Part shown: one piece after another, positions 2,780 through 18,760 of the stretch
How positions within the stretch are numbered: position 1 is the stretch's first letter
Layout: each line of letters starts with the position of its first letter
DNA from: a bacterium
GTDB taxonomy: Bacteria > Bdellovibrionota > Bacteriovoracia > Bacteriovoracales > Bacteriovoracaceae
Length of the DNA stretch: 40,959 bases
Assembly (NCBI GenBank): GCA_030425045.1
Contig: JAUHVL010000029.1
Location: forward strand, 1-40,959
Direction: 5' to 3'
The notes under the pieces: model-generated
What the model saw: the letters and a program-made list of their open reading frames with translations, nothing else
What the model was told of the DNA's origin: nothing
Database searches by the model: none
Position numbers and translations under genes: made by a program

Positions 2780-4005
2780 TTTTCCTCTGCTTTAACAACG
2801 AGAGAAACATTTTGTCCCCCCATTGCAAAATTATTACTCATAAAGAGTTGATGTTTAGGTTTCGTAATATTTTTAATTAAATCTAGAGGTGGGATTTTTT
2901 CGTCAACTGTATCAAGGTTTCTTGTACCAAAGAGTATATCGTTTTGTATTCCCACCACTGAAAGAATGACTTCCAAAGCCCCACATGCCGCCAAGGTGTG
3001 ACCGAAATTTCCTTTAAAACTACTGACTGGAATCTTATTTCCAAAAACATTGAAAATCCCTTGTCCCTCTAGGATATCGCCAATAATTGTCGATGTGGCA
3101 TGAGCATTAACATAGCAAATATCAGAGGCCTTAACTTTTGAATTTGCTAAGGCATTTTCAATATTATTTTGTATTGATTCGGCAGATGAGTTTGCCAGAT
3201 TACTAGCATCGCAATTGTGAGCACCACCTAATATTGTTGCCAGAGCAGGTCGTTTTCTTTTTGTTAAATCTTCTTCTCTTTCCATAATCACCACGGCAGC
3301 ACCTTCTGAAACAACAATTCCCGTTCTCTTTTGATCAAAGGGACGTGATGCTTCTAAGGGAGCGTGATTAAAATTTGTTACCGCTGCTTTAGCTGTATCG
3401 AAACTGATGCACGTTGAAACATGACATTCATCGGCGCCACCTGCGATTACTAAATCACAAAGACCTGCTTGCAAATATTGATGGGCCAAAAGAATTGTTT
3501 GAGCACTAGTTGAGCAAGCACTTGCGATGCAGATCACTTGCCCTTTAAAATCGAGATAACTGGCAAGATTTAATGAAAGGGTATGGCTCATTCCTTTAAA
3601 CATGGTAGTTGAAAGTTGACCTTTCGTTGAGTTCGATTCTTTGAACTTCACCATTGACGTTTCTAATGTTGAAAGACTGCTGGTGGTGGATCCTATGATC
3701 ATTAACGTTCGTTTGTTATTGAGATCTTCTTTTGTTAGATTCGCCTTTGCGAGGGCCTCGTCGCAAGCGACGGCCATCATCTCGGACATCTTTGACATGG
3801 TTCTTCTTTTTTTACGAGGAATGACATCTCCTTTAAACTGATCGGCAAAAGATCCAATATTACATTGAAGGCCTTCAATTAAGGCCCATTGCTCAACCAG
3901 CTTCATATTACATTTGTTTTCTAACAGAGATGAGTAATTCTCTTCTACATTATTTCCAAGTGGAGAGACCAGACCAAAGCCTGAAATTTTTGAATGCTTA
4001 GTCAC
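2776..4005 (-). CDS. Beta-ketoacyl-ACP synthase, FabF/KAS II family
   Basis: A 409-residue condensing enzyme of the thiolase fold. The catalytic triad is complete: Cys164 in SACSTSAQ, His302 in NAHATST (the family usually has NAHGTST) and His336 in GNFGHTLAACG, with the conserved Lys331 before it. It should catalyse decarboxylative condensation of malonyl-ACP with the acyl chain on ACP. It overlaps the FabG-like gene upstream by 8 bp and the ACP gene downstream by 4 bp. Only one ketosynthase is present in the cluster, whereas aryl-polyene clusters usually have two or more, so either it works alone or a chain-length partner lies elsewhere. Confidence 0.9.
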   Translation of the reverse strand: MTKHSKISGFGLVSPLGNNVEENYSSLLENKCNMKLVEQWALIEGLQCNIGSFADQFKGDVIPRKKRRTMSKMSEMMAVACDEALAKANLTKEDLNNKRTLMIIGSTTSSLSTLETSMVKFKESNSTKGQLSTTMFKGMSHTLSLNLASYLDFKGQVICIASACSTSAQTILLAHQYLQAGLCDLVIAGGADECHVSTCISFDTAKAAVTNFNHAPLEASRPFDQKRTGIVVSEGAAVVIMEREEDLTKRKRPALATILGGAHNCDASNLANSSAESIQNNIENALANSKVKASDICYVNAHATSTIIGDILEGQGIFNVFGNKIPVSSFKGNFGHTLAACGALEVILSVVGIQNDILFGTRNLDTVDEKIPPLDLIKNITKPKHQLFMSNNFAMGGQNVSLVVKAEEK

Positions 4006-4732
4006 GTATCAAACCTCCATCGACATTGATCGTTTGTCCTGTCATATAAGATGAATCATCTGAGCAGAGAAACTTGATGACCTGTGCGATTTCACTTGCC
4101 TTCCCAAAACGTTGCATGGGAATCATTGGTTTTATTTTTTCGAGATGCTCAATTCCTTCGATCATTTTTGTTTCGACAACTCCAACGCAAATGGCATTCA
4201 CTCGGATTCCTCTTTTGGCATTTTCTAGAGCAAAAGATTTTGTTAGGCCGAGAAGACCTGCTTTACTCGCGGCATAGTTGGCTTGCCCAATATTACCAAG
4301 CTTTCCTGAGATCGAGCTGATGTTGATAATCTGTGCTTTGTTTCCTCTTCTAAAATGTCGGCAAAACCATTTCGATAAAACAAAAGGAGCGTAAAGGTTC
4401 ACCTTCATTACTTTATCAAACTGATCATAATCCATGAGAGGGGCAGGAGAGTCACTATGAATTCCAGCATTATTAACCAGCACACTTGGGTGTTGAATTT
4501 TATTATCTTTAAAAAAGTTTTCTAAGGTTTCTTCGAGGTTTGAAACATCGGATAAATCGTATTGAAAGAGATAGGATTTTTGTCCACTCTCTTCAACAAG
4601 CTTTTTTGTTTCCATGGCACCTTGTTCATTTTTTCCAAAATGAATAATAATATCAAAGCCATGTCTGGCAAGAGTTAGGGCCGTTTCTTTTCCCAAACCT
4701 GAGGATGCACCAGTGATAAAAGCTAATTTCAT
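3998..4732 (-). CDS. SDR-family 3-oxoacyl-ACP reductase (FabG/ApeQ-like)
   Basis: A 244-residue short-chain dehydrogenase. The cofactor motif TGASSGLG is at residues 7-14, NNAG at 87-90, and the catalytic residues are Ser139/140, Tyr153 and Lys157 (YAASK). The C-terminal GQTINVDGG is typical of FabG. It should reduce 3-ketoacyl-ACP to 3-hydroxyacyl-ACP with NADPH in the cytosol. Its ATG overlaps the acyltransferase stop (4729-4732), and its end overlaps the ketosynthase start, so it is in the middle of a coupled operon. No enoyl reductase is seen in the cluster, which would leave double bonds in place. Confidence 0.88.
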   Translation of the reverse strand: MKLAFITGASSGLGKETALTLARHGFDIIIHFGKNEQGAMETKKLVEESGQKSYLFQYDLSDVSNLEETLENFFKDNKIQHPSVLVNNAGIHSDSPAPLMDYDQFDKVMKVNLYAPFVLSKWFCRHFRRGNKAQIINISSISGKLGNIGQANYAASKAGLLGLTKSFALENAKRGIRVNAICVGVVETKMIEGIEHLEKIKPMIPMQRFGKASEIAQVIKFLCSDDSSYMTGQTINVDGGLIRD

Positions 4733-5580
4733 GAGACACCTCTATTTTCATTATAAATTGAGCCATAAACCTTTTCATTGAGCTTATTGACGGGGGTGGA
4801 GCGAACAGCTTCTGCAGTAAGCGGCTCTTTAACGGTGATCGTAATTTTTTTATTTTTTGTACGAATGAATTCCCAAAATAAAAACATCCTACCAGGAGTT
4901 CTTCCCAAAAACCTGATGAAGTGAAAGAGAGCGCTATTTTTTCCAGAGATATGAAGAGGAATAATTTGCGCCTTTGTTCTTCTGGCGAGCTTAAAGGGTG
5001 TGTTGAACCAAGGAGCATCTTGAATTTTGTATTGTTGATTAACTTTTCTTAAATAAGAGACTTCGCCTGCAGGTGCGTAAACAAGAATGCCACCTCGATC
5101 TAACTGCTCGTTTGAAAGCGTTAAGGCCTTGAGGTTTGAATTTATTTTTTCTTGTGTGTTCTTTCCCTGGTTATCGGCCGGAATAATATACTTTTCTGGA
5201 AAGAGAATAACGCCCTTTAAAATTTTATTGGCAAAGGCCTTCCAATTATCATGAAGGTTTTCTTCGATAAATAATGCCGTTACCAATGCATCGAGAACTC
5301 CATGGGGGTGGTTGATCGTAACGACTGTAGAGCGGTTGAGATCAATTTTTTTGAGGAGCTCTAGGTTTTGATATTCAACTTCAATACTTCTTTGTTGTAA
5401 GAGATTTTTTAGATTCTCTTTAAAATCATAGTGAAGGTCTTGATTTATTTTTTGCGCCTTAGGAATTCCGAGGATTATGGCCAAAAAGTTTTTGATTAAC
5501 CTTGTTAAAAAATTATCAGATTCATCGACTAAAGGATTCTTTAGCGTCATATTCATTTTATTTTGGGCGCCGCGACTCAT
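4729..5580 (-). CDS. Lysophospholipid acyltransferase-family protein (PlsC/OlsA-like)
   Basis: An acyltransferase of the LPLAT superfamily, 283 residues from the first ATG. The active-site motif is NHPHGVLDAL, in the spacing seen in the hemolysin-like branch (NHPxGGxDG), and PAGEVSY forms the later acceptor-binding motif. A hydrophobic stretch near residues 25-38 suggests membrane association. It would transfer the acyl chain made by the downstream genes to a lipid acceptor. It is the first gene of the minus-strand operon and diverges from gltA across 151 bp. The start is uncertain: ATGs at codons 1, 9 and 11 all lack a clear ribosome-binding site. Confidence 0.78.
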   Translation of the reverse strand: MSRGAQNKMNMTLKNPLVDESDNFLTRLIKNFLAIILGIPKAQKINQDLHYDFKENLKNLLQQRSIEVEYQNLELLKKIDLNRSTVVTINHPHGVLDALVTALFIEENLHDNWKAFANKILKGVILFPEKYIIPADNQGKNTQEKINSNLKALTLSNEQLDRGGILVYAPAGEVSYLRKVNQQYKIQDAPWFNTPFKLARRTKAQIIPLHISGKNSALFHFIRFLGRTPGRMFLFWEFIRTKNKKITITVKEPLTAEAVRSTPVNKLNEKVYGSIYNENRGVS

Positions 5581-5731
5581 ATAAATTCTTATAATAAAGT
5601 TAATTTCATAACTTATCGGTCGTTTTGGTCTTATATATACATTTTTTAACGCTCCAACCTTTGTAATTAACAGGGCCCTAACTTATTATTTTGTCGAAAA
5701 CTTAATTACCAATGATTTTTATGGAGGCAGC

Positions 5732-7006
5732 ATGTCCGAAACAGCGAAGCTAGAGCTAGCAGGGAAAACCTACGAATTGCCAATCATTACTGGAACAGAG
5801 AATGAGAAGGCCATCGACATCAGATCGTTAAGAGCAGAAACAGGTTATGTGACTCTCGATAATGGTTTTATGAATACAGGATCATGCCAGTCGGGAATTA
5901 CGTTTTTAAATGGAGAAGAGGGGATACTTCGTTATCGTGGCTATCCTATTGAGCAACTTGCAGAGCAGTCACGTTTTCTCGAAGTCGCTTATCTTCTTGC
6001 TTATGGTGAACTACCGACTCAGGCCCAGTTTGATGAATACCTAAAGCAAATGAGTAATTTTAATAATCTGCCAAATGGTGTTCAGAAAATAATTGAACAG
6101 TTTCCCAATAACTCTCATCCAATGGGTGTGATTTCTTCTACGGTTTGTTCACTTTGTTCTTTTTACCCTGAATATTTAAAAATGCCTCTTGAAGCTGAAG
6201 ACCGCGAAAGAGGAATTGTACAAATGATGGCGCAAACAAAAATCATCGCAGCATCTTTTTATAGACAAACGATTAATAAAAAACCTGTGCCCTCGGATCC
6301 TTCTCTTGGCTATACCGGAGACTTCTTAAATATGATGTTTGATAAAGAACCAGAGCCAGAAATTCTTAAGGCACTCGATGTTCTTTTTATGCTTCATGCA
6401 GACCATGAGCAAAATTGTTCTGCCTCAACTGTAAGAGTTGTAGGCTCTTCTGAGGCCAATATTTTTGCTACTGTTAGTGGAGGGATTAATGCTCTATGGG
6501 GACAACTTCACGGTGGTGCAAACCAAAGAGTGCTTGAGATGCTTACAAAAATTAGAGATGCCGGTGGTGACTACAAAATGTTCATCAATAAAGCGAAAGA
6601 TAAGTCTGATCCTTTTAGATTAATGGGATTTGGTCACAGAGTTTATAAAAACTTTGATCCACGAGCGAAAATAATCAAAAAAGCATGTGACGTTGTTCTT
6701 GAAAAATTAAATGTTCAAGACCCACTTCTCGACATTGCAAAAGGTTTAGAAGAAGAGGCGAGAAGTGATGATTATTTTGTCTCAAGAAATCTTTATCCAA
6801 ATGTAGATTTCTATTCAGGGATTATTTATAAGGCATTAGGGATTCCAACGAATATGTTTACTGTTATGTTTGTTTTAGGGAGGTTGCCTGGTTGGTTGGC
6901 CCAGTGGAAAGAAATGAGAGAAGATTCAAGCATTAAAATCTCAAGACCAAGACAGATTTATGTCGGTCATAATAAAAGAGAATATGTTCCGATCAACAAT
7001 AGATAA
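5732..7006 (+). CDS. gltA: Citrate synthase (type II, GltA-like)
   Basis: Condenses acetyl-CoA and oxaloacetate to citrate at the entry of the TCA cycle. At 424 residues it is close to the E. coli enzyme, and it carries the catalytic trio: His260 in QLHGGAN, His302 in GFGHRVYK and Asp359 in NVDFYSG. The N-terminal roughly 60-residue domain typical of hexameric type II enzymes is present. A good ribosome-binding site (GGAGG) precedes the ATG by 6 nt. The gene is monocistronic: it diverges from the lipid cluster and is followed by an intrinsic terminator. Confidence 0.97.
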   Translation: MSETAKLELAGKTYELPIITGTENEKAIDIRSLRAETGYVTLDNGFMNTGSCQSGITFLNGEEGILRYRGYPIEQLAEQSRFLEVAYLLAYGELPTQAQFDEYLKQMSNFNNLPNGVQKIIEQFPNNSHPMGVISSTVCSLCSFYPEYLKMPLEAEDRERGIVQMMAQTKIIAASFYRQTINKKPVPSDPSLGYTGDFLNMMFDKEPEPEILKALDVLFMLHADHEQNCSASTVRVVGSSEANIFATVSGGINALWGQLHGGANQRVLEMLTKIRDAGGDYKMFINKAKDKSDPFRLMGFGHRVYKNFDPRAKIIKKACDVVLEKLNVQDPLLDIAKGLEEEARSDDYFVSRNLYPNVDFYSGIIYKALGIPTNMFTVMFVLGRLPGWLAQWKEMREDSSIKISRPRQIYVGHNKREYVPINNR

Positions 7007-7039
7007 AGAAAAGTTTAAGTTAATATAGTGAATGTAAAG

Positions 7040-7066
7040 AAAGCCTCTTTTCAGAGGCTTTTTTTA
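7040..7066 (+). terminator. Intrinsic terminator after gltA
   Basis: A perfect 9-bp stem (AAAGCCTCT at 7040-7048, AGAGGCTTT at 7053-7061) with a TTTC loop runs into a T tract of seven or more. It begins 33 bp after the gltA stop. On the opposite strand the tail is poor in T, so it should act mainly on gltA transcripts. Confidence 0.88.
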
Positions 7067-7567
7067 TTTCATCTGTAAGGTTTCTGCTAAAAGATCAGCT
7101 TGTAAGGTAACGATCTTCCCATCAACCCAGCTATAAAACTGAATGGTGTAATTAATCTTTGTAGGCTCTTCAACGGTAAGGTGCATACACTTATTGTAAA
7201 GAGAAGAAGTGATGGTTAGAACTTCTCTTGTTCCATCAGCAGGCATATGGTTTCTCTCAGCCGTGTAAGTCATCGTTCCACAAGCATCATTTTCAATCGA
7301 CTTAAGTGGAAGGGTCACTTCTTTGATCTGTAAAGCGGCGATACAGGCCATCCCTTCTGGACAGTGAGCTGCGTATTCGTAATTAAGACTTAATGTTCCT
7401 AGAAACGCGTTGACTTCTACATGTCCTTCATAAATTGTTCCCATTTCGCTATCCACATCCCATCTCTCATGTTGAGAAAGCTCAGCAGTGAGAATAGGCA
7501 TAATTGGTGTTGTTGCCGTCGTGTTTAGTGAAACAAAAGTCATCAGTATTAAAAGCATCATCTTCAT
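7064..7567 (-). CDS. Secreted protein of unknown function
   Basis: A 167-residue exported protein. I chose the ATG at 7567 because AAAGGAGA lies just upstream at a good distance and it puts a signal peptide (MKMMLLILMTFVSLNTTA) at the N-terminus; the longer frame to 7606 adds 13 residues without a ribosome-binding site. The mature part is rich in Thr and beta-prone segments. It has four Cys residues (in AAHCPEGMACIA, ENDACG and YNKCMH) that may form two disulfides in the periplasm or outside the cell. No known family is recognised. A block of TGCCAC half-sites lies directly upstream. Confidence 0.7.
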   Translation of the reverse strand: MKMMLLILMTFVSLNTTATTPIMPILTAELSQHERWDVDSEMGTIYEGHVEVNAFLGTLSLNYEYAAHCPEGMACIAALQIKEVTLPLKSIENDACGTMTYTAERNHMPADGTREVLTITSSLYNKCMHLTVEEPTKINYTIQFYSWVDGKIVTLQADLLAETLQMK

Positions 7568-7599
7568 AATTATCTCCTTTGGTATGTGCTGAGCAATTT

Positions 7600-7660
7600 T
7601 TGCCACACTTCATGGCAAGTGGCAATTAGATATGCCACAAACTGTGGCATTGGCTGCCAC
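7600..7660. promoter_or_regulatory. Clustered TGCCAC/GTGGCA inverted repeats upstream of secreted-protein gene
   Basis: Five copies of the hexamer TGCCAC or its complement occur within 60 bp: 7601, 7619, 7633, 7645 and 7655. Two pairs form palindromes: TTGCCAC/GTGGCAA (7600-7606 and 7619-7625), and the perfect 8-bp stem ATGCCACA-AAC-TGTGGCAT (7632-7650). They lie between the end of xthA and the ribosome-binding site of the secreted-protein gene. They could be an operator bound by a dimeric regulator or RNA hairpins ending the xthA transcript; no T tract follows on either strand, which favours an operator. Confidence 0.5.
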
Positions 7661-7690
7661 AACGTAGCTGAGATCAAAATATGAGAGCTG

Positions 7691-8467
7691 TTAAAGGTTT
7701 AGTTCTAGAACGAGAGGGCAGTGGTCTGAGCCAAGAACTTCGGGGGTGATATAGGCCTTGTCGACATTCGATCTGAGCAATTGATCGACAAAGAAATAGT
7801 CAATTCTCCAACCGATATTTCTTTCACGACAATTTCCTCTATAGGTCCACCAAGTATAGTGGCCTTTTTCATCAGGGTGGAATTCTCTAACGACATCGTG
7901 AAAGCCTGCGGTCAGTACTTCATCAATATAAACTCTCTCTTCGGGAAGAAAGCCTGTGGTTTTCTGATTTGTCTTTGGGTTGGCCAAGTCGATTTCTGTA
8001 TGGGCCGTGTTGACATCACCACAAATAATAATACCTTTCCCCGTTTCTTTTTGTTTCTCTAAGGCTTGTGCTAAGAGAGTGCGGCTATAGTCGAGTTTAT
8101 AAGGAACTCGGCCATGATCTCGTTGTCCGTTTGGGAAGTAGCCGTTATAGAGAATGAACTGATCGAATTCTGCACATATGGTGCGCCCTTCGTTATCAAA
8201 CTCATCACGACCAAGCCCAAGAGTGATTTTAGGGGTACCAAATTTTTCATGAAAATATAGGGCAACGCCGGAGTAACCTTTCTTTTCAGCACTCGCAAAA
8301 AAGCTTTGATAGCCAGCAGGTCTTAATAAGGTTTCACTCAATTGTTCTGGTTGCGCTTTCGTTTCTTGTAGGCAAACAATCTCGTACTGATTTGAGCTTA
8401 GCCAATCGAGAAAACCTTTTTTCTCTGCTGCACGAATTCCATTAACATTCCAACTTGCGATTTTCAT
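7691..8467 (-). CDS. xthA: Exodeoxyribonuclease III
   Basis: Exonuclease III/AP endonuclease of base excision repair, 258 residues, close to the family's usual length. It has the N-terminal IASWNVNGIRA, catalytic Glu35 in LQETKAQ, Asp152 and Asn154 in GDVNTAH, and the final Asp248-His249 in GSDHCPL. It nicks abasic sites and degrades 3' ends of duplex DNA in the cytosol. The start codon at 8467 gives the standard N-terminus (MKIASWN). It diverges from the SGNH-protein gene at 8555. Confidence 0.95.
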   Translation of the reverse strand: MKIASWNVNGIRAAEKKGFLDWLSSNQYEIVCLQETKAQPEQLSETLLRPAGYQSFFASAEKKGYSGVALYFHEKFGTPKITLGLGRDEFDNEGRTICAEFDQFILYNGYFPNGQRDHGRVPYKLDYSRTLLAQALEKQKETGKGIIICGDVNTAHTEIDLANPKTNQKTTGFLPEERVYIDEVLTAGFHDVVREFHPDEKGHYTWWTYRGNCRERNIGWRIDYFFVDQLLRSNVDKAYITPEVLGSDHCPLVLELNL

Positions 8468-8554
8468 ACGCTTTATTTTGATCAGAAAACGTATGATGTA
8501 AACTAAATAATCTCTTTCTTGTCACTATGGCATTGGACCCCTTAAAATAATGAT

Positions 8555-10189
8555 GTGCAAAAAATAAAAACAATCTTATTTCTTTTAAGTATAACGGTAT
8601 TGAGTCTAGTTTTGACGGCCATACTGCTTTATTCATTTAATCGTCCACTTATTAATGGGAAGTATATTCTATCTAAAAGAAATTTAGAAATGGGTGTAGC
8701 AGGCTCTGAAGCAGCTATTATAGATAGAGCTCTATTTTCAACAAACAAGCTTAATCTTGATAAGTGGTACGGGTATCAAGAAGTAATATTAAAAAAAAGT
8801 GTTGGTTATGATAATGCAACCTTTTCCTTTGAGATATCAGATTATTCTTATATTGATTTCTATTTTCACTTTGATGAAAAAGTCAGATATGGAATTAGGC
8901 TATCTACTATGGAAGAAAATCCATCTCTTTTTTTTATTCAAGACAAGAGCTACCGCTTTTTAAAAAAATATCAATTAGATCTAAAGATAAAAGAAAATAT
9001 AGAACAGTTTTTAGAACTTAAAAAAAGTAAAAATAAATTAATATTAAATATTGAAAATAAGCAAATTATATTACCGGATTTGTTTGGAATTGACCTCGTA
9101 GGAATTGGTTTTAGAGGGGGGGCAAAACCTTCTAGTATCGATAATATTAAGTTGATGAAAAATAATGAAACTGTTTTGTTAAGCAAGTTCACTAATGATA
9201 AGAACATATTTCGTATATTTATTCAGCATTTTATAATGTTGATCTTGCTGTCATTTGTTCTAAAATTTTTTCTTTCTACAAATACTCTAATCTTTATAAA
9301 TTATTGTTTAATACTTCTAATGATTATTTTTTATATATTTGATTTTTATATATTTTCAGTTAGAGAGTCATTTGTAACACAAAAATATTTATATTCTGAA
9401 GAAGATGTTAACGTTACTCTTTTTGAGTCCTACCATCATAAACTGATTATGGTTTGGGGTAATCTGTTTGGGTTTGATACTGATTTTAAAAAACAATTGG
9501 ATGATACATACTTTCAAAAGAGAATTTCAAAAGGTCCAATAATTTGTAAAAACTTAGTTAAATGTGATAGGGCAAAGAAACATGAAGTTATTGAAGTATT
9601 AACTAAAAACAATGATTGTCATAAACAGTTATTCCTCGGAGGATCTCAGACTATTGGCGCAGGAGCTTCAAGCATAGAAAGAACATTTTTCTATAAAGTT
9701 CATTTTAAAAAGCTTTCTAAGATACGAGATAAATGCCTTATATCGTTAAATTTGGGAGCTTCAGGCTGGCCTTTAGAGAAAGTATTTAAAGATTTTAAAG
9801 ATAATTACTCTCACCTTAAGTTTAACATTATAGTCCTTAATACTGGTATAAATAATAAAAGTGATACATTCTTGGAACCATTCAAAAATTTTATGTTGTT
9901 TGCGAGTTCAAAAAAGCTAAATTTAATCGTACTAGAAGAGGCAATATCTTATGAGTTTAAATTTTTTGAACCTGGGTTGAAAAAACTAATTATTGAAAGA
10001 GAATCTGAAAAGTATAATATTCCTCAATACTCTCTTGAGAAATATATGAAAACCCAAACTAAAAATAGAGAGGGGGATATCTGGTGGGATATGGCCCATT
10101 ATACCGATTATGGTCATCAGCTTGTTGCAGACTGGCTAAGTGAAAAAATGGACAATCATTATGATTACGGGCAAGATAAAGCGCTATGA
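8555..10189 (+). CDS. Membrane-anchored SGNH-fold protein (hydrolase/acyltransferase-like), number 1 of 3
   Basis: A 544-residue membrane protein from a GTG start. One transmembrane helix lies near residues 5-27, an extracytoplasmic beta-rich region follows (about 30-225), two or three more hydrophobic segments lie at about 228-275, and the C-terminus is SGNH-like. In the latter the nucleophile is Ser364 in FLGGSQTIG, block II/III is LNLGASGW and LNTGINN, and the Asp512-x-x-His515 pair is in WWDMAHYTDYGH. Such domains act as esterases or as O-acyltransferase partners on glycans. The stop overlaps the start of the radical SAM gene (ATGA at 10186), so the two are coupled. Base composition is extreme: positions 9301-9360 hold only 7 G/C in 60. 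The substrate is unknown. Confidence 0.7.
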   Translation: MQKIKTILFLLSITVLSLVLTAILLYSFNRPLINGKYILSKRNLEMGVAGSEAAIIDRALFSTNKLNLDKWYGYQEVILKKSVGYDNATFSFEISDYSYIDFYFHFDEKVRYGIRLSTMEENPSLFFIQDKSYRFLKKYQLDLKIKENIEQFLELKKSKNKLILNIENKQIILPDLFGIDLVGIGFRGGAKPSSIDNIKLMKNNETVLLSKFTNDKNIFRIFIQHFIMLILLSFVLKFFLSTNTLIFINYCLILLMIIFYIFDFYIFSVRESFVTQKYLYSEEDVNVTLFESYHHKLIMVWGNLFGFDTDFKKQLDDTYFQKRISKGPIICKNLVKCDRAKKHEVIEVLTKNNDCHKQLFLGGSQTIGAGASSIERTFFYKVHFKKLSKIRDKCLISLNLGASGWPLEKVFKDFKDNYSHLKFNIIVLNTGINNKSDTFLEPFKNFMLFASSKKLNLIVLEEAISYEFKFFEPGLKKLIIERESEKYNIPQYSLEKYMKTQTKNREGDIWWDMAHYTDYGHQLVADWLSEKMDNHYDYGQDKAL

Positions 10190-11562
10190 GTTATTCTGAA
10201 AAAGAGTTTGAAAAAGTTGCTGTGATAACGAAAAAAATGGATGAAATTTCTTCTTCTTTTTGTTTGGTTCGTTGGAAACACGCAACTTTAAATCTTGCCT
10301 CAGGTGCATCGAAAAGCTGTTGTCATCACCACTTTAAACCAATTCAATTAAATAAAAATGGCGAGTTTCAATTACATGATAACTCTGAAGAGCAGAAACT
10401 TAGAAAAGAAATGTTAGACGGAAAGAGGCCAAAAGATTGTTCTTATTGTTGGTGGGTGGAAGATTCAGGGCATGCCAGTGATCGGGTAAACTGGAGTGCA
10501 AAATCTTGGATGGCCCCCAGTTTTGACGAAACAACGGAAAATATTTCAAATAAAGCCGCCCCTCCTTCATGGGTAGAACTTAATTTCTCTTCAGTTTGTA
10601 ATCTTAAATGTCTTTATTGTTCTCCGATCTATTCGACTAATTGGTATAAAGAGATCAAAAAGTTTGGTCCTTATCCGACGAGTAATCCACATAATAGTAT
10701 CTCCCATTTAAATTATATTGAATTTGAAGATAATTATGAAAATACCGAATTGATGGAGAAGTTTTGGCCTTGGTTTTATGAAACGCTACCTCATATACGT
10801 TTGTTGAAAATTACTGGTGGAGAGCCCCTTCTTAGCGAAAATACGTTTAAGTTGATGTCGATATTAGAAAAACAGAATCACCCGAAATTATGTTTAGGGA
10901 TAAATTCTAATTTAAGTATCTCTGATGACAAATGGATGAGATTTATCGAGAGTGTAAAGATACTCGAACAAAATAAAAGCATAGACCGAATTTATCTACA
11001 TCCGAGTTTAGACTCCTCTGCCAAAAGAGCAGAGTATATTCGTCATGGACTTGATTATTCTGTTTTACAAAAAAATGTTGAGACTTTTTTAAGTGAAACT
11101 AATGGCTCCGTTCACTTCATATCGACTTTAAATTGTTTAGCTCTTGGTGGGCTTTTAGATTATTGGAAATATATTCTTGAGTTAAAAACAAAACATTATA
11201 AAAAGGGTAGAGAGATCGCGATTGGTACAGAAGTATTACAAGCACCAGAGTGGTTAAATTTAAATATTCTCGATGAGAGTATGTCTCACTACTTTGATGA
11301 GGTGATTTCATTTGTTAAAGATCATATTAATGAAGATGGTTCGGGTTTTACCCAAGTTGAACTAGCTGGCCTTGAGAAAGCAAAAAGTACAATGTTGTCA
11401 CCATCGGATAATAGAGAAAGAAAAAGAAGTGATTTTTATCGATTTATAAAAGAAGTCGATAAAAGAAGAGACTCTTCCTTTGATGAAATTTTTCCTGAAC
11501 TTACATCTTTTATGGAGATATGTAAGGCAAACTCAGAGAGACTCGAGAACTTTTTGAGCTAA
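10186..11562 (+). CDS. Twitch-domain radical SAM protein, number 1 of 2
   Basis: A 458-residue radical SAM enzyme. The 4Fe-4S cluster motif CNLKCLYC uses Cys138, Cys142 and Cys145, and the SAM-binding ITGGEP is at about 209-214. An N-terminal Cys-rich region comes first (Cys26, Cys45-Cys46 followed by HHH, and CSYCWW at 85-90), which is characteristic of the twitch/SPASM-like group. These enzymes generate a 5'-deoxyadenosyl radical in the cytosol to modify peptides, sugars or lipids; the substrate here cannot be read from sequence. It is coupled to the SGNH gene upstream by a 4-bp overlap and overlaps the convergent SGNH gene by 30 bp. The pairing with SGNH proteins repeats downstream. Confidence 0.82.
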   Translation: MSYSEKEFEKVAVITKKMDEISSSFCLVRWKHATLNLASGASKSCCHHHFKPIQLNKNGEFQLHDNSEEQKLRKEMLDGKRPKDCSYCWWVEDSGHASDRVNWSAKSWMAPSFDETTENISNKAAPPSWVELNFSSVCNLKCLYCSPIYSTNWYKEIKKFGPYPTSNPHNSISHLNYIEFEDNYENTELMEKFWPWFYETLPHIRLLKITGGEPLLSENTFKLMSILEKQNHPKLCLGINSNLSISDDKWMRFIESVKILEQNKSIDRIYLHPSLDSSAKRAEYIRHGLDYSVLQKNVETFLSETNGSVHFISTLNCLALGGLLDYWKYILELKTKHYKKGREIAIGTEVLQAPEWLNLNILDESMSHYFDEVISFVKDHINEDGSGFTQVELAGLEKAKSTMLSPSDNRERKRSDFYRFIKEVDKRRDSSFDEIFPELTSFMEICKANSERLENFLS

Positions 11563-12537
11563 TACTTTATTAGCAAAAGCTGTTGGGTGGCCATCACCTT
11601 TGATTTTGATCTGATCTTCTTTATATTTATTGAATACATCTGAAGAATCAATGACAGGAATATCTCTTTCTTTTAAACATTTAGAAACTTCTTCGAAAAT
11701 TTCAGAATCTCTCCAAAAAGAATGAGCGACCGTGATAAACCTTGAATTTGGAAGCTGTTTAAGAAGGTTTTCTTTTGATTTTTGAATTATGTCACACATA
11801 AATAAGTAATCGTTTTGGTTAAAGAAATAATTCGTAATTCCAAGAGCTGCTTTTTCAAGGTAAATTTTGGTTTTAACTTTTCTGTCAAACTCAAAAAATC
11901 CTTTTCTGATAATTTTTCCACTTTCATTTTTCTCATAATAAGGCCACTTTTTTGCCCAAGTGATGACTCTGGGGGTTCCAAGTAAACGATCTAAGTGACC
12001 CGTAGGCCATGTGTAAAAAATGAGTCCTTTTTTTTCATTAATTTGCTCATTTATTTTAAAACTCTCGCTATAGGCCAACATTTGCTGTGGTCCATAACCG
12101 GGATGAGCGTATATATAAGATTTATATTTTTTAGAAAGTTGTTGAAAATAATAGGGAAAGGTCTCATCATCTTGAACTCCTTCTCCCATTGTGTAGGAAC
12201 AGCCGAAGAATATTGCATAATCTGAAAAAGAGGTATTATTAACATCAGGTACGATTCTTCTGCCGTAGTCATCTGTTTTGACTGTATAATCTATTATTTT
12301 TTCACCTTTTAAGTAACGCTTGATGTTTACATCTCTGTTTGGCTCAAGTGTTTTCCCCACAATAGGATGAAAATACGTTAAGCTGCCAGAGTAATGAACA
12401 CTAGTTTTATTATAATGCTGATTTCTTTTATAAAAATAAAAGCCAAGCACAATAGCAATGGTAAGGAGAATACCTAAAGAGATTGCTAAAAGATGAAATA
12501 TAAAGTTATTTTTGCTCAATTGCTGTTCACTGGACAA
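11533..12537 (-). CDS. Membrane-anchored SGNH-fold protein, number 2 of 3
   Basis: A 334-residue protein with one transmembrane helix near residues 13-36 and a long extracytoplasmic SGNH domain. The nucleophile block is FFGCSYTMGEG with Ser114. A GYGPQQM segment contributes the oxyanion block, and the C-terminal GDGHPTAFAN supplies the Asp-His end of the triad. This looks like the AlgX/AlgJ-like or esterase branch of the fold, acting in the periplasm. It lies on the minus strand between the two plus-strand radical SAM genes and overlaps the first one tail-to-tail by 30 bp. It has its own start region of about 50 bp facing the second radical SAM gene, where a shared divergent promoter could lie. 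Confidence 0.7.
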   Translation of the reverse strand: MSSEQQLSKNNFIFHLLAISLGILLTIAIVLGFYFYKRNQHYNKTSVHYSGSLTYFHPIVGKTLEPNRDVNIKRYLKGEKIIDYTVKTDDYGRRIVPDVNNTSFSDYAIFFGCSYTMGEGVQDDETFPYYFQQLSKKYKSYIYAHPGYGPQQMLAYSESFKINEQINEKKGLIFYTWPTGHLDRLLGTPRVITWAKKWPYYEKNESGKIIRKGFFEFDRKVKTKIYLEKAALGITNYFFNQNDYLFMCDIIQKSKENLLKQLPNSRFITVAHSFWRDSEIFEEVSKCLKERDIPVIDSSDVFNKYKEDQIKIKGDGHPTAFANKVLAQKVLESL

Positions 12538-12588
12538 GTTTACCTATAAAATTTACTCTAAAAGAAGAATAACATAAACCGAATTTCA

Positions 12589-13920
12589 ATGAATCAAACG
12601 AGAAATAATATTGAACAGACTTTTTGCCCCGTTCCCTGGGTTTCAAGCTCTGTTACTAATCAGGGCGTTTATAGGGCCTGTTGTCAATGTTCTCAAAGTT
12701 CATGTGGTGGCATCTTAAAAGATCAAGATGGTATACCTTTAAATGCATCGAAAGCTTCTTTTGAGCAAATTAGAAATCATTCGACATTGAAGTCTATGCG
12801 AAAGGATATGCTTAATGGAGTGAGAAGTTCACTGTGTAAGGCTTGCTGGGATGAAGAGGACGCTGGAATCGTTTCTAAAAGACAAAGTGAGATCAAAAAA
12901 TTAAATAAGTTTTTTAATTTAAAGGATGCCCAGCGTTGTACCAGTGATGAAGGTGAAATTTCACCAAGTACAAAAATGGTCAGTCTCGATTTACGGTTTG
13001 GCAATAATTGTAACCTTGCTTGTATTATGTGTGGTCCACTGGACTCCAAAGCTTGGTACGCTGATTATGTCAAGGCCACTGGAAAAACGAGATTTGGAAC
13101 CATTATTGGAGATGTCGAATTAGAAAAGGCGGGATCTGATTCTTGGATAACCAAAAATAAAAATAAATTCGAGTGGTATGACGAAGAGCACTTTTGGTCG
13201 GAATTAAAAAAATACGCAGATGGTTTGAAGTATATTTATATGGCGGGAGGTGAACCTCTCATTACTCCGAAACATCATGAGCTTTTAAAAAACCTAATTG
13301 AACTCAATGTTGCTAAAAATATCGAGCTTGATTACGCCACCAACTTTACAGTGCTGCCACCAGAAGTTTTAGAATACTGGACACATTTTAAAGGTGTTAA
13401 TCTTGGCATAAGTATTGATGGTACAGGAAAGATCAACGACTATATTCGTTTTCCCAGTCAGTGGGAAAAAATTGAGCGCAACTTTGATCAATTAGAAAAT
13501 TTAACGTCAGTGAATCTTCATGTTTATACCAATTCAACGATCTCCGCACTCAATATGCCATCTTCATTAACTACACTTAAATGGTTTATTGAGAGACGTA
13601 AAGAGAAGAAATATCCTCAACAAATGTTTGTTCACCCTGTCTATGGGGTGAACTATCTTTCACCTAAAGTGCTACCTAAAAAAATAAAAGAAAAAGTAAA
13701 AACGGAATTGCTTCACTTAAAAGAAAATTCAAAGATGGGTATTTTTTATAATAAAAGTATTTCTCAAAGCATTGAGCAATTTCAAAACATTGTAAACTTC
13801 TCACTTGAGGAAGATCTTTCTCATTTAAGGGAAAAACTTATAGCTGAAACAGAAAAGCTAGATCTTGTGAGAGGGCATCGTTGGAATGACTTTCTTGAAT
13901 TTAATTTAACTGATTCGTGA
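12589..13920 (+). CDS. Twitch-domain radical SAM protein, number 2 of 2
   Basis: A 443-residue paralogue-like radical SAM protein. The motif CNLACIMC uses Cys141, Cys145 and Cys148, and MAGGEPL is near 218-224. The N-terminus has FCPVPW (Cys13), ACCQC (31-34), Cys39 and CKACWDEEDAG (83-), the Cys pattern of the twitch-type group with the extra cluster-binding region before the barrel. SISIDG-like residues (GISIDGTG) follow in the barrel. It is cytosolic with an unknown substrate. The next gene, another SGNH protein, begins 10 nt after its stop, so the radical SAM-SGNH pairing is repeated in reverse order relative to the first pair. Confidence 0.82.
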   Translation: MNQTRNNIEQTFCPVPWVSSSVTNQGVYRACCQCSQSSCGGILKDQDGIPLNASKASFEQIRNHSTLKSMRKDMLNGVRSSLCKACWDEEDAGIVSKRQSEIKKLNKFFNLKDAQRCTSDEGEISPSTKMVSLDLRFGNNCNLACIMCGPLDSKAWYADYVKATGKTRFGTIIGDVELEKAGSDSWITKNKNKFEWYDEEHFWSELKKYADGLKYIYMAGGEPLITPKHHELLKNLIELNVAKNIELDYATNFTVLPPEVLEYWTHFKGVNLGISIDGTGKINDYIRFPSQWEKIERNFDQLENLTSVNLHVYTNSTISALNMPSSLTTLKWFIERRKEKKYPQQMFVHPVYGVNYLSPKVLPKKIKEKVKTELLHLKENSKMGIFYNKSISQSIEQFQNIVNFSLEEDLSHLREKLIAETEKLDLVRGHRWNDFLEFNLTDS

Positions 13921-13930
13921 TAAGGCCTCT

Positions 13931-15496
13931 GTGATAAAAATTGTCTTCTGGAACCTATTCATCCTCACTTTTATTATTGGAAGTTATATTGTTTATATTC
14001 ATAAAAAGTATGTGAGTGGACCTCTGACAGGTAATGCCATAAGGGGATATCAAAATTATAAGAAGCATCCTGAATATCACCCTAATCTAGATAAAGTTTC
14101 ATGGCTTACGTACTGGCCATCTCCAACAAGCTTTGTTTCCAATAAGCCAGATATGACAAAAATTCGAGTAGGATGTTTTGGTGATTCTCATACTCAAGGA
14201 GATGAAACGGCTCCGGGAAATGATTATCCCTCTGTTTTACAAAAAATTCTTGGTGACCGTTACCAAGTTATTAACTTTGGTAATGGGGGGCATGGCTTTC
14301 ATCAGATCTATACATTGATTGATCATTATCTCGATCGCTATAAACTAGATTATATTATTATTGGGCCTCGTGGATTTTATACTTATCGAAGTATGTCTTT
14401 TAATAATTATTGGAACCAAGGTTCCGTTCCTTATGCTCAATACAAGATTAAAGATGATAAATTAGTTGTTCATGAAGTAAGAGGAAAAACAACCATTGAT
14501 AAAGCAAAAAGATATTATGGTTTTTTCCCCTCAATGGAATTACTTTTTGATGACCATGTCCCACCTTCTTTTCTGAAACTTTCTTATATGAGGTATAGAA
14601 AAGAGATGGAGAATCCTTTTTTTAAAGAAAATATTAAGGAGGCGAGAAGGATTCAACGTCGTCAGATCATCGAAATTGCAAATAGGGGCGCAAAGCTCAT
14701 TCATTACACTGACTTTTCTAAAGATTGTAGGGCCTTTAAAGATATTAAACATAAAAATTACTCTCTTACCTGTATCGAACCTTTTATACATAAATTTCCT
14801 TACCTCGCGGAGATGACTCATCCCTCGGCGTTTGGTTATTATTATCATGCGAAAGATATTGCTCAGTTAATCTTAAAGAGTGATAAAAAGATCTCTAAAA
14901 TTAAGTTTCATGATTATCAAAACCAAATCATTCAACAAAAGTTTAAGGTTGATGATCAGAGCTTAGAGATTCATAAATTATCTACTTTCTTAGAAAGTCG
15001 TGTGATTGCCTGTTTGAAGTCTAATCGTGGTTATACGGGAATTATTGGAGAAATTAAAAGTTATGATAATCAGAATCAAAACGATCATGACTCTGTTTTA
15101 ATAGGGGTCTACATGAAAGGAGAGCCTCTTGCGAGTGCTCTTTTTTTAAAAATTCCTAAGAGAGACCCTATTTTAGAAAACTTGAAAAATGAAAAATTTT
15201 ATAAATTGAAGAGTGTTCCTAATCTTTATTTTTATGAATTAGAAGAGAGTTCTCTCGAATTATCTCGTAATGTCATTCACTCAGATCGTGACCTGCTTAA
15301 AAGTCCTCTTATTAAAACTTTTTTTAATCACACAAAAGATTATACTAATCATTATCATCCCAAATATCCTACCTTAAAGATGGTTGTTGATGAGAAACTT
15401 AGTGCCTATGAAATATTGAGAAATGAAAAGAGAAGTGAGCTTAAAATAGAGATGAAACTCAGTGCTCTTTGCCCTTACTCTATCGAAAAAAAGTAA
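13931..15496 (+). CDS. Membrane-anchored SGNH-fold protein with C-terminal extension, number 3 of 3
   Basis: A 521-residue protein starting at GTG, with AAGG 5 nt upstream as the ribosome-binding site. One N-terminal transmembrane helix (about 3-23) is followed by a canonical GDSL-type block, GCFGDSHTQG with Ser86, then INFGNGGHG, and MTHPSAFGY with the catalytic-type His. The residue three before that His is Glu (EMTH), not the usual Asp, so the triad may be ExxH. After about residue 330 there is a further 190-residue region that I do not recognise. It probably acts in the periplasm on acyl esters, coupled in expression with the radical SAM protein just upstream. Confidence 0.7.
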   Translation: MIKIVFWNLFILTFIIGSYIVYIHKKYVSGPLTGNAIRGYQNYKKHPEYHPNLDKVSWLTYWPSPTSFVSNKPDMTKIRVGCFGDSHTQGDETAPGNDYPSVLQKILGDRYQVINFGNGGHGFHQIYTLIDHYLDRYKLDYIIIGPRGFYTYRSMSFNNYWNQGSVPYAQYKIKDDKLVVHEVRGKTTIDKAKRYYGFFPSMELLFDDHVPPSFLKLSYMRYRKEMENPFFKENIKEARRIQRRQIIEIANRGAKLIHYTDFSKDCRAFKDIKHKNYSLTCIEPFIHKFPYLAEMTHPSAFGYYYHAKDIAQLILKSDKKISKIKFHDYQNQIIQQKFKVDDQSLEIHKLSTFLESRVIACLKSNRGYTGIIGEIKSYDNQNQNDHDSVLIGVYMKGEPLASALFLKIPKRDPILENLKNEKFYKLKSVPNLYFYELEESSLELSRNVIHSDRDLLKSPLIKTFFNHTKDYTNHYHPKYPTLKMVVDEKLSAYEILRNEKRSELKIEMKLSALCPYSIEKK

Positions 15497-15613
15497 CTAT
15501 TGAATAATTAAAGGCTTCTTTTCGGTGTCACTTTGCGCTAAAAGATATATATTTCAAATTCCTCTTATCATATTCGATACAATGGTATAAGGGCCTAACA
15601 ACTGGGTCACTAT

Positions 15614-17242
15614 ATGAAAGTAAAAAGTTTCTTTTTTAGTTTATTGCTAATAGTTTTAAGTCTCTCGAGTGAGGGGAAGTTCTTAGAACACTCTGTTGGT
15701 ATTTATATTTCTGAAAAAGGTCAGCAGTTTTTTAAGTCAAACCTTTTAGAAATTATGGAAAATAATGGGTTTTCTCCAGATAAGTTTTCCATTCCCAAAA
15801 GCACCTTTACCCTCAAAGAGTCTTCGTTGAGCAGTATGATTGAAGACCCTGAACTCATTGATCTTGCCTCTAATATCAAAGGATCATTTAATCGCTATTT
15901 TAATGGTCTAGAGTTTAAAGAAACTCATCAGTTTCAAATTGATGTCGGTGATATTGAATTTAAAGCAAATTGGAATGAGGCAGGGGTTGAGTTTCGTAAG
16001 CCCTTAGTAAATGAAATATCTGAACCTTATGAAGTCTTGGCCTATATTTGGATTAACGCTTCAAATATAGATATTAAAATTTCTTCAATTTCTGCTAGAG
16101 ACTTGAACCATCTTTTTCTTGGTGATGTGGGATTAGACGGTCTCCATATTAAACAATTAGATGAAAGTGAAAACCTTCGTATTGGATTACCTCTAAAGTT
16201 AAAGAAAAATGGCGCAAATGATTTTGAAATTATTGCCGAAGCCCCAAATTCAAATACCAGAGATATTCTTTTTGATATGGATTTCACTTCTCCCATACGT
16301 ATCCCGGAGATAAAAGTCAGTATTAATGGACATGAAGCTTCTTTAAATCTTGAAGAAGTTGAGACTCTTTTTAAAGACAATGAAACATTGATTCTTTCTA
16401 AAATTCAAGAAACATTAAAAGAACAACTTGAAGAGAAGTTTCCTGCTATCGTGAAAACTGAGATGTCTAAAGTTTTAAATGGCGGATTCTCTGAAAAAAC
16501 GGAAATGCTGCCTCCTGGAGCGCCAGAGGGGCGTACACCAAAACCACTTGTTTCTCAAATGAGAATTGAAGATATTGACTTCAAAGGGGACAATCTTCAT
16601 ATTGGTGTAGGCTTAGAGTTAGACGATCCTAGTGCTAGTAAACAAAGAGAATTACCACCTTCTCATCATGCTCAAAAACAACCAAATTTAAAGTCAGCAA
16701 AAGAAGAAAATTACGATTTAACGATCGCTGTTAATCAAGGTTTTATTAATAGAATTGTTCAGCTTACGGCCTATCGTCAATACTTCTCTAATATGCCCTT
16801 AGGTAATGGTCAAACGATTTCCTTAGCTTATCCACCAGTCTTTAATCTTAAAGGAAAGAATAAAAAGCCAAGCCTGTCAGTTGTGATTTCATATACGGTT
16901 GAGGGTCTAGCAGCAATTGCCGTAAAAAATCCTATTCAAATTGAAATGGATTTACTCTTAGATTTTCCAATTGATCAAAATACGAAAAGAATAGGAATAG
17001 AAGTTTCAGGAGTGGATATGAGTACGGTTCATGTTCCGGATCGTTTTATTCGTATGATGGCCGGTGTGGTAAGAAACTCCGCTGTGAAACAAGTTGGAAA
17101 ACTACAAGGGAGTATAAAGGGAATGAAGCTCGCTGAAGAGTTACCTGTTCCCACTGACTTTTCTGGTATAATTTTAGAAAAACAAGATGTAGAAGTTAAT
17201 GAATCTGGTTATTTAATGATCTACACAAATTATGGAAACTAA
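15614..17242 (+). CDS. Exported 542-residue protein, possibly TULIP/BPI-like
   Basis: A large exported protein with a signal peptide (about residues 1-22, FFFSLLLIVLSLSS). It has no transmembrane helices and no enzyme motif. The sequence alternates amphipathic beta stretches with two helical segments. It opens with a HSVGIYISEKGQQF pattern and seems to have two halves separated near residue 300 by a Pro-rich linker (MLPPGAPEGRTPKP). This layout recalls two-domain tubular lipid-binding (BPI/TULIP) proteins, which carry lipids across the periplasm or bind LPS. That assignment is an impression, not a motif match. The next gene starts 1 nt after its stop, so the two probably form an operon. Confidence 0.6.
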   Translation: MKVKSFFFSLLLIVLSLSSEGKFLEHSVGIYISEKGQQFFKSNLLEIMENNGFSPDKFSIPKSTFTLKESSLSSMIEDPELIDLASNIKGSFNRYFNGLEFKETHQFQIDVGDIEFKANWNEAGVEFRKPLVNEISEPYEVLAYIWINASNIDIKISSISARDLNHLFLGDVGLDGLHIKQLDESENLRIGLPLKLKKNGANDFEIIAEAPNSNTRDILFDMDFTSPIRIPEIKVSINGHEASLNLEEVETLFKDNETLILSKIQETLKEQLEEKFPAIVKTEMSKVLNGGFSEKTEMLPPGAPEGRTPKPLVSQMRIEDIDFKGDNLHIGVGLELDDPSASKQRELPPSHHAQKQPNLKSAKEENYDLTIAVNQGFINRIVQLTAYRQYFSNMPLGNGQTISLAYPPVFNLKGKNKKPSLSVVISYTVEGLAAIAVKNPIQIEMDLLLDFPIDQNTKRIGIEVSGVDMSTVHVPDRFIRMMAGVVRNSAVKQVGKLQGSIKGMKLAEELPVPTDFSGIILEKQDVEVNESGYLMIYTNYGN

Positions 17243-17243
17243 G

Positions 17244-17714
17244 ATGAAGATGATGATAAATAGAATTCTTATGACTTTATTTTTCCTAGGGGCACTATCA
17301 CCAAGTCTTTATGCTGCCGATATAAATGCCGCGAAGATTATTACGAAAAATGTAGAGGCCAAGTACGTTTCAGTGTTTTTGGTCACGGGAAGGCAGAGTT
17401 TCGCTGGGTCTTTTATTATCAATACCGTTTATAAAAATTTAGGAACATTTGAGTCGTCTCAAGACATAAATTTAGAGGCACAAGATACACCAAGAGATGG
17501 CTGGAGAAAGCCAAGTCATATTCTGGTGGTGATTCATAATCAAAAGGAAGTTTCTCTTAATAAATACAATGTTATGGGTGTTGAGGGATATGTAAAACCT
17601 CGTTTTTTCGATGAGAAAGATTATATCGCCCCCACAGAGTCTAATAGTATTTTTGTGGAAAGAAGAGGCCTTCTTATTCGTTCTCTCAACACAGTTGGTA
17701 GCTGGCAGCTATAA
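17244..17714 (+). CDS. Small exported protein of unknown function
   Basis: A 156-residue protein with a signal peptide ending near SLYA-A. I prefer the ATG at 17244, one base after the upstream stop and with GGAA 6-7 nt before it; the frame is also open to an ATG at 17232, which would add four residues and overlap the upstream gene. The mature protein is beta-prone, lacks Cys, and has no recognised domain. It is probably co-transcribed with, and acts beside, the large exported protein before it. Confidence 0.65.
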   Translation: MKMMINRILMTLFFLGALSPSLYAADINAAKIITKNVEAKYVSVFLVTGRQSFAGSFIINTVYKNLGTFESSQDINLEAQDTPRDGWRKPSHILVVIHNQKEVSLNKYNVMGVEGYVKPRFFDEKDYIAPTESNSIFVERRGLLIRSLNTVGSWQL

Positions 17715-17813
17715 ACTGTCGACTAATTTTTCGTCAAAATTCAAAATTTGTACAATTTTAAGACTGCTAACATCTTGATTTACAGTTGTCTAATTGGCAT
17801 ACAGTTTGCTTCC

Positions 17814-17819
17814 TATAAT
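17814..17819 (+). promoter_or_regulatory. Consensus -10 box (TATAAT)
   Basis: A perfect TATAAT at 17814-17819, about 25 bp before the strong hairpin. A TTGGCA at 17794-17799 is only 14 bp upstream, too close for a standard -35, so the upstream element is unclear. If active it would start a transcript of about 70 nt ending at the hairpin, or the mRNA of the aspartic protease gene. Confidence 0.35.
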
Positions 17820-17843
17820 AGGTAAGAGAATGCTTCGAATATA

Positions 17844-17900
17844 AAGTCATCCACATTGCGGTTTCCCCCTTACCAATATGTGGATGACTTAATTTTTTTT
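17844..17900 (+). terminator. Strong intrinsic terminator or leader hairpin
   Basis: A perfect 13-bp stem, AAGTCATCCACAT at 17844-17856 pairing with ATGTGGATGACTT at 17878-17890, has a 21-nt loop and is followed by AATTTTTTTT. It lies 130 bp after the small exported protein and 15 bp before the protease ATG. It may end the upstream operon, end a small RNA starting near 17826, or act as an attenuator in the protease leader. Confidence 0.75.
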
Positions 17901-17914
17901 ACCACTGGATAGAT

Positions 17915-18760
17915 ATGAATTATATGATGGTCTTTTTACTGGGCCTTTCAAGCCTTTTTGCTCAAGAAATTGTCTTTGATACGACAAGGTCAATGTTTGG
18001 TGCAGGAGAAATCAACCTAGAATGCCAGTTAAAAGAAAAACATGATAAATGTAAATTTGATACAGGAGCAAATATTAGCACCATCTCAAGTGGGAGTGTG
18101 CTTTTAGAAGAAGAAAATCCTGAAGTAATAGCGTCGACCTCTTATACCACGGCAACAGGGGCCCAAAAATCTTGTGATTTTATAAAAATAAAAGATATCA
18201 AAATTGGAAATTATCTGATCGATGAACTTACACCAGTTAGTTGTAATTTAAACCCTGGTGAAAAGGCGAAAAACTTAATTGGACTCGATGCTTTTCACCA
18301 AAAAAGTTTTTACCTAGATTATAAAAGTGGCAAAATTATTGTTAACTATACTCCTCCAGAGGATAAGGTTTTACGAGATTTTGATGTCGACAGTGTCGGT
18401 CATATCCTCATTCCTGTAAGACTTACTGATGGAACAAGCAGTACTGCCATGTTTGATACGGGAGCATCCTTAACGGTTGTGAGTAACAAGTTTATTAACG
18501 ATCATGAGCAACGCTTCTCTGTCCTTGAAACGAATAATCTTGGACAGGATTCTTTTGGTAACCCCATTGAGATGAGAAAAACCATCAGTACACTAAAAAT
18601 TGAAGATCAAAGTTATGTAGCAGAGTATATTATGGGAATCGATTTTAAGGCCATTCATGACAATGCTGGTGCACATGTTAACTTCATCTTAGGTCATAAT
18701 ATTATCTCTTCAAATAATTGGTATTTCGACCTTAAAAACAAGAAATGGTACGTAGAGTAA
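17915..18760 (+). CDS. Exported two-lobed aspartic protease (duplicated retropepsin-like domains)
   Basis: A 281-residue exported protein with signal peptide (cut near FA-QE). It contains two aspartic-protease domains in tandem: FDTGAN with Asp49 and FDTGAS with Asp181. Each is followed by a hydrophobic-hydrophobic-Gly segment (NLIGLDAFHQ near 114, FILGHNIIS near 256) and a FxLDYKSGK / FDLKNKK strand. A single retropepsin-like domain works as a homodimer; here one chain supplies both active-site Asp residues, as in pepsin. It should cleave peptides in the periplasm or outside the cell. The start has GGAT 5 nt upstream. The substrate is unknown. Confidence 0.78.
   Translation: MNYMMVFLLGLSSLFAQEIVFDTTRSMFGAGEINLECQLKEKHDKCKFDTGANISTISSGSVLLEEENPEVIASTSYTTATGAQKSCDFIKIKDIKIGNYLIDELTPVSCNLNPGEKAKNLIGLDAFHQKSFYLDYKSGKIIVNYTPPEDKVLRDFDVDSVGHILIPVRLTDGTSSTAMFDTGASLTVVSNKFINDHEQRFSVLETNNLGQDSFGNPIEMRKTISTLKIEDQSYVAEYIMGIDFKAIHDNAGAHVNFILGHNIISSNNWYFDLKNKKWYVE

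Follow-up and report, generated by a model that had tools for sequence, protein, structure and literature searches.

The window analysed here, 40,959 nucleotides in length, is one complete contig of a 3.97 Mb genome and carries five consecutive open reading frames, in which SGNH proteins alternate with radical SAM enzymes:

8555 to 10189, + strand, S1, SGNH protein of 544 aa
10186 to 11562, + strand, R1, N_Twi radical SAM enzyme of 458 aa
11533 to 12537, − strand, S2, SGNH protein of 334 aa, LA_2486-like
12589 to 13920, + strand, R2, N_Twi radical SAM enzyme of 443 aa
13931 to 15496, + strand, S3, SGNH-like protein of 521 aa

An earlier note on this DNA had described these five genes, and the layout it gave is borne out by the open reading frames: S1 and R1 overlap through an ATGA, R2 and S3 are spaced by 10 nt, and one SGNH gene, S2, lies inverted on the − strand between R1 and R2. 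S2 is convergent with R1, the 3' ends of the two genes overlapping by 30 bp, and its start is 51 bp from R2. The cassette is AT-rich, with S1 having the lowest GC content within it (0.285). The flanking genes that we scanned match bacterial housekeeping families and include those for citrate synthase, exodeoxyribonuclease III, SAM decarboxylase and spermidine synthase; among them no phage gene was recognised near the cassette, which is not in the setting of a phage genome. Nor could a glycosyltransferase, a carrier or an acyl-donor gene be recognised near the cassette in the window. A promoter scan of the window did no better than chance (30 against 30.0), and a terminator scan was uninformative. 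No empty site that would prove insertion was found in relatives, in which the downstream gene sits after another operon and the exodeoxyribonuclease III gene lies elsewhere.

R1 and R2 are NF033640 (N-terminal twitch, N_Twi_rSAM) radical SAM enzymes that carry all of the conserved cysteines. Against a cut-off of 170, R1 scores 289.8 bits over positions 1-397 of the 398 in the profile and R2 scores 336.8 bits over positions 2-391; R2 also matches PF04055 above cut-off (39.5 bits). The cysteines of the auxiliary cluster are C26, C45, C85 and C88 in R1 and C13, C31, C83 and C86 in R2, and those of the radical SAM CxxxCxxC motif are C138, C142 and C145 in R1 and C141, C145 and C148 in R2. As read from the family alignments A2, A3 and A6 (A2 being too diverse for contig scans), the cluster cysteines of R1 are invariant over 50 sequences and those of R2 in 14 diverse members. 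Of 369 genomes in the phylum, 124 have at least one NF033640 gene; the genome to which the window belongs has 12 above cut-off, and we found no paper in the literature searched that gives NF033640 a function. R1 branches as a deep sister to the clade that bears the signature FCxAKWxQVTxxLxxGxTHSCHHP (the SCHHP or R1 clade), and reads SKSCCHHH at the position where most of its relatives read THSCHHP. This clade comprises 77 loci in named genomes, mostly of Bdellovibrionota, and at least 592 stretches of viral contigs; the closest sequence relatives of R1 itself are bacterial. As R1 lies outside this well-sampled clade, the genomic context of the clade transfers only weakly to it.

The predicted structure of R1 is confident (pLDDT 92.8), and among its full-length matches in BFVD a Caudovirales phage protein comes first (TM 0.79/0.87). 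Among the PDB matches listed, the best alignment is with the RiPP maturase SkfB (Z 14.2), with BlsE within 1 of it, and SkfB, BlsE, SuiB, MoaA, anSME and DesII all have close Z-scores. Because these matches cover only the common radical SAM core, we did not transfer a function to R1 from structure. Anti-phage defence was likewise set aside, since the similarity to viperin is generic and confined to the same core. A search for PDB sequence relatives of R2 and S3 found none.

The three SGNH proteins each have an N-terminal transmembrane (TM) helix, and S1 has a further two, as judged by hydropathy. Their assignment is made by homology to our own HMM and by conserved residues, not by Pfam scores. 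In S1 the N-terminal helix is followed by a middle region of ~190 aa, two TM helices at 217-256 and a C-terminal SGNH domain (~333-544) whose residues S364, N399, N433, D512 and H515 are 94-100% conserved over 18 sequences; S1 has no match in Pfam or NCBIfam, and folding it alone gave an unusable model (pLDDT 39.5). S2 has S114, D315 and H317, with S114 and H317 invariant in an alignment of 22, and a homologue of it is encoded by 75 of the 369 genomes surveyed in the phylum. It has no Pfam match and resembles the LA_2486 SGNH/GDSL-type esterases of NF047474 in parts of the chain (48.4 bits), but is not a member of that family by the curated cut-off of 300 bits. S3 consists of its N-terminal helix, an SGNH-like domain (~36-326) that scores 19.2 bits to Lipase_GDSL_2 (PF13472), below the gathering cut-off of 32.9, and a C-terminal extension of ~190 aa; a query with S3 only had no match in viral contigs. 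The Gly-x-Ser nucleophile of Block I (S364 in S1, S114 in S2 and S86 in S3) is invariant within each family alignment. The DxxH motif of Block V is present in S1 (D512/H515) and takes the form DxH in S2 (D315/H317); S3 alone, in an alignment of nine members, keeps the serine and a histidine (H297) without a catalytic acid, and because of the missing acid it may be inactive or binding-only. In line with the earlier note, the three are not simple copies of one another by pairwise phmmer comparison.

The pairing of SGNH and twitch radical SAM genes is real and recurrent. The genome has only four PF13472 matches at E 0.001, two of which flank another NF033640 gene on contig C72 to form an SGNH-R-SGNH trio (locus L070). 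Across this genome and its relatives, with the window excluded, SGNH genes make up 5 of 103 immediate NF033640 neighbours against 6 of 586 genes further out (Fisher p = 0.015); a second bacterial set, which shares some loci with the first, shows a weaker excess (7/162 vs 18/670). These counts are based on genes called by a simple ORF picker and on an SGNH HMM that was built iteratively from seeds including the window proteins. Adjacent pairs occur outside the window in at least seven loci: besides the trio, an SGNH gene precedes the radical SAM gene by 1 nt in L091, whereas the radical SAM gene comes first, followed after 3 nt by an S3 homologue in L100, after 15 nt by an SGNH gene in L105 and after 3 nt by an S1 homologue in L201; in L378 it is divergent from the adjoining S1 homologue. 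In L476, from a distant family (G349:C23), a radical SAM gene, an S2 homologue and an SGNH gene overlap in that order; because this locus was found by seeking S2 matches near NF033640 coordinates, it serves as an example and stands outside the statistics. We note that the L476 cluster (3826-17925), where the radical SAM gene that overlaps the two SGNH genes is of the R1 clade, holds more SGNH genes and another radical SAM gene, and also encodes a PqqD-like protein and a GNAT/Peptidase_M1 protein.

A looser association is seen in phages. Among 80 viral loci, chosen by an R1-clade query, 44 have SGNH genes within the fetched flanks. In 19 whole viral records, 25 of 57 SGNH positions lie no more than 12 kb from a radical SAM gene, against 12.2 expected under uniform placement, an expectation that ignores the clustering of SGNH genes among themselves and so overstates the significance. 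The density of SGNH genes around the phage radical SAM genes is flat out to six genes, which points to regional co-location in an island and not to strict pairing. Besides SGNH genes, the islands contain a methyltransferase, GT7+LamG proteins and other genes that resemble glycosyltransferases, and the Gp23 major capsid protein, present in 11 of 20 viral records tested, indicates that the phages are T4-like. The host recognition clusters of pelagimyophages and cyanomyophages are known to combine radical SAM cassettes with glycosyltransferases and tail-fibre genes (PMC7029224), and one T4-like genome is on record as having 12 radical SAM genes (PMC5332604). The phage loci we fetched are similar to these clusters and include SGNH genes; the window differs in that the contig is bacterial, its SGNH proteins are anchored in the membrane and no phage genes were recognised. 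The phage SGNH proteins have no N-terminal TM helix (0/78, compared with 46/59 of the bacterial ones), and for this reason the suggestion that the SGNH protein acts on an exported product does not hold as a general rule.

The five genes are not a conserved unit. The complete set was found in no other genome, and 38 of the 40 S1 and S2 loci fetched have no strong NF033640 match. A strong NF033640 gene is beside the S1 homologue in one of 20 S1 loci (L378), with two more (L376 and L380) having only weak radical SAM matches some genes away, and in one of 20 S2 loci (L406) it lies at a distance of three genes from that of S2. At E 1e-3 the S1 homologue of L394 was missed by phmmer. The S3 loci fetched besides L100 contain one NF033640 gene, in L145. 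Homologues of S1, S2 and S3 are mostly alone among unrelated genes, such as (judged from protein starts) murD/ftsW, groEL, rpsL-rpsG, flagellin and pyruvate kinase, and we reject a conserved five-gene cassette since they are mostly unlinked to radical SAM genes. Nor is the partner rule fixed, as S3 follows R2 here and an R1-clade enzyme in another genome (G027). Most NF033640 genes also have no SGNH neighbour. The earlier note had named this beforehand as grounds for giving up its proposal, that the repeated pairing reflects one pathway, and to the letter it is what we find; what stands of the proposal is the adjacent pairs in other Bdellovibrionota, the co-location in phages and an association at the level of whole genomes.

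That association was measured in 368 genomes of the phylum, where NF033640 genes are present in 16 of 20 genomes with S1 against 107 of 348 without (p = 1.5e-5), in 59 of 74 with S2 against 64 of 294 (p = 3e-20) and in 12 of 16 with S3 against 111 of 352 (p = 6e-4), these p values being uncorrected for phylogeny within families and for genome size. For S1 and S2 it holds both inside and outside the window's family, the limits of which are approximate; the S3 figure is unstratified. Genome content and phylogeny, and not a common function, may lie behind the co-occurrence.

Our preferred reading, which we hold tentatively and at somewhat less than even confidence, is that the five genes form a small mosaic cassette for surface modification, drawn from families common to Bdellovibrionota and the islands of T4-like phages. 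In the cytosol, R1 and R2 would generate radicals from SAM and use them for the oxidation or rearrangement of a sugar- or lipid-linked precursor, and the N-terminal [4Fe-4S] cluster would sit at the substrate site. S1 and S2 would be SGNH enzymes that face the periplasm and acylate or deacylate surface molecules, and S3 a degenerate relative. Instead of being inherited as a unit, the cassette would have grown stepwise by gaining members of gene families that move among the genomes of Bdellovibrionota and the host-recognition islands found in T4-like phages.

Another explanation, to which we give a smaller though still appreciable share of belief, is that the genes are unrelated cargo, singletons of dispersed accessory families that have collected at a single permissive site without belonging to a common pathway; the co-occurrence would then merely mark genomes that collect such genes. 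The isolation of most S1, S2 and S3 homologues beside unrelated genes, the flat SGNH density in phages and the inverted, convergent orientation of S2 are all as expected of such cargo. Tight operon-like couplings that recur with the same family pairs are not, and neither is the strength of the S2 association at the genome level inside and outside the window's family.

A surface-modification cassette would bring to mind the periplasmic SGNH domains that acetylate O-antigen in Salmonella (PMC7448272). Like the acyltransferase domains of OafA and OafB, S1 is membrane-tethered and keeps a Ser-Asp-His triad, and some S1 and S2 homologues are beside or near MBOAT-like genes. However, the SGNH similarity in sequence is weak, S3 lacks the acid, and no MBOAT or AT3 acyl-donor was recognised among the cassette and its immediate flanking genes. 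MBOAT-like genes adjoin SGNH homologues in L408 and L149 and lie no more than four genes from an S1 homologue in L388, L389 and L395, the MBOAT assignment having Pfam confirmation in L408 alone; we regard these neighbours, together with the acetylation of O-antigen by SGNH domains, as hints of acyl chemistry. In the latter three loci, a small protein, a protein of ~440-455 aa and the MBOAT-like protein near the S1 homologue resemble a dlt-type D-alanylation operon, the first two proteins being guessed from length and protein starts.

It is also conceivable, if rather improbable, that the N_Twi enzymes modify a protein or peptide made on the ribosome. The 77 bacterial loci of the R1 clade include 16 with a PqqD-like protein (PF05402) and 12 with a small Peptidase_S74 protein (PF13884), L476 carries a PqqD domain, and SkfB, a RiPP maturase, gives the best of the listed PDB alignments of the R1 model, with BlsE close behind. 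Yet no PqqD-like or S74 ORF of at least 30 aa was found in the window, and no RRE/PqqD partner near R1 or R2; R1 is outside the SCHHP clade, PqqD is absent from the viral islands, and the PDB matches span the common core and name no substrate. We note separately that the small S74 protein has a conserved N-terminus (FGGIxEFNLEEIExEVLNDSxYLDVFAGSD) and that a protein of ~300 aa without a recognised family is present in 33 of the 77 loci. The grouping is illustrated by L069 in the same genome (C9:1-16000; genes at 1818-2285 −, 3561-3842 −, 5106-6809 + and 6809-8164 +) and recurs in L091, L106, L169, L171 and L176; it is a candidate rSAM/RRE system, with the S74 protein as a possible substrate.

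That the cassette is what is left of a phage host-recognition island after integration into the chromosome we consider very unlikely: the Caudovirales match of the R1 model, the abundance of R1-clade relatives in viral contigs and the AT-richness of the cassette (28.5% GC in S1) would fit, but the scanned flanks match bacterial housekeeping families, the closest sequence relatives of R1 are bacterial, and the SGNH proteins are TM-anchored, unlike those of phages. A prophage or plasmid origin was rejected, as R2 has one marginal match in INPHARED and none among plasmids, and an R1-clade protein has no INPHARED match.

Returning to the mosaic cassette, a broader form of this reading, which we think unlikely, is that N-terminal-twitch radical SAM enzymes and SGNH proteins make up a modular, unnamed envelope-tailoring system whose components are exchanged between predatory Bdellovibrionota and the host-recognition islands of T4-like phages, in which case predators and phages would both alter cell-surface molecules by the same radical chemistry. 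We found no description of a radical SAM-SGNH association in the literature, the parts themselves being of known kinds. NF033640 is a large family, and our data tie it to SGNH proteins and glycosyltransferases in predatory bacteria and in the islands of T4-like phages; were the coupling functional, it would provide a first handle on the role of these enzymes and on the ways in which predators and phages change cell surfaces.

Lastly, two further settings of these families were observed. The same genome has a radical-SAM-rich island (L065-L067, C34, ~146-195 kb) with glycosyltransferase-like genes and a UDP-glucose dehydrogenase gene, located, as judged from protein starts, between an EF-Tu gene and a secE-nusG-rplK-rplA-rplJ-rpoB-like run. 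In addition, genes for NodU-like carbamoyltransferases are beside or near homologues of S3 (L147, 5249-8867), S2 (L406, 2665-6120) and S1 (L387, 6932-10367), and are possibly another partner of these SGNH families.
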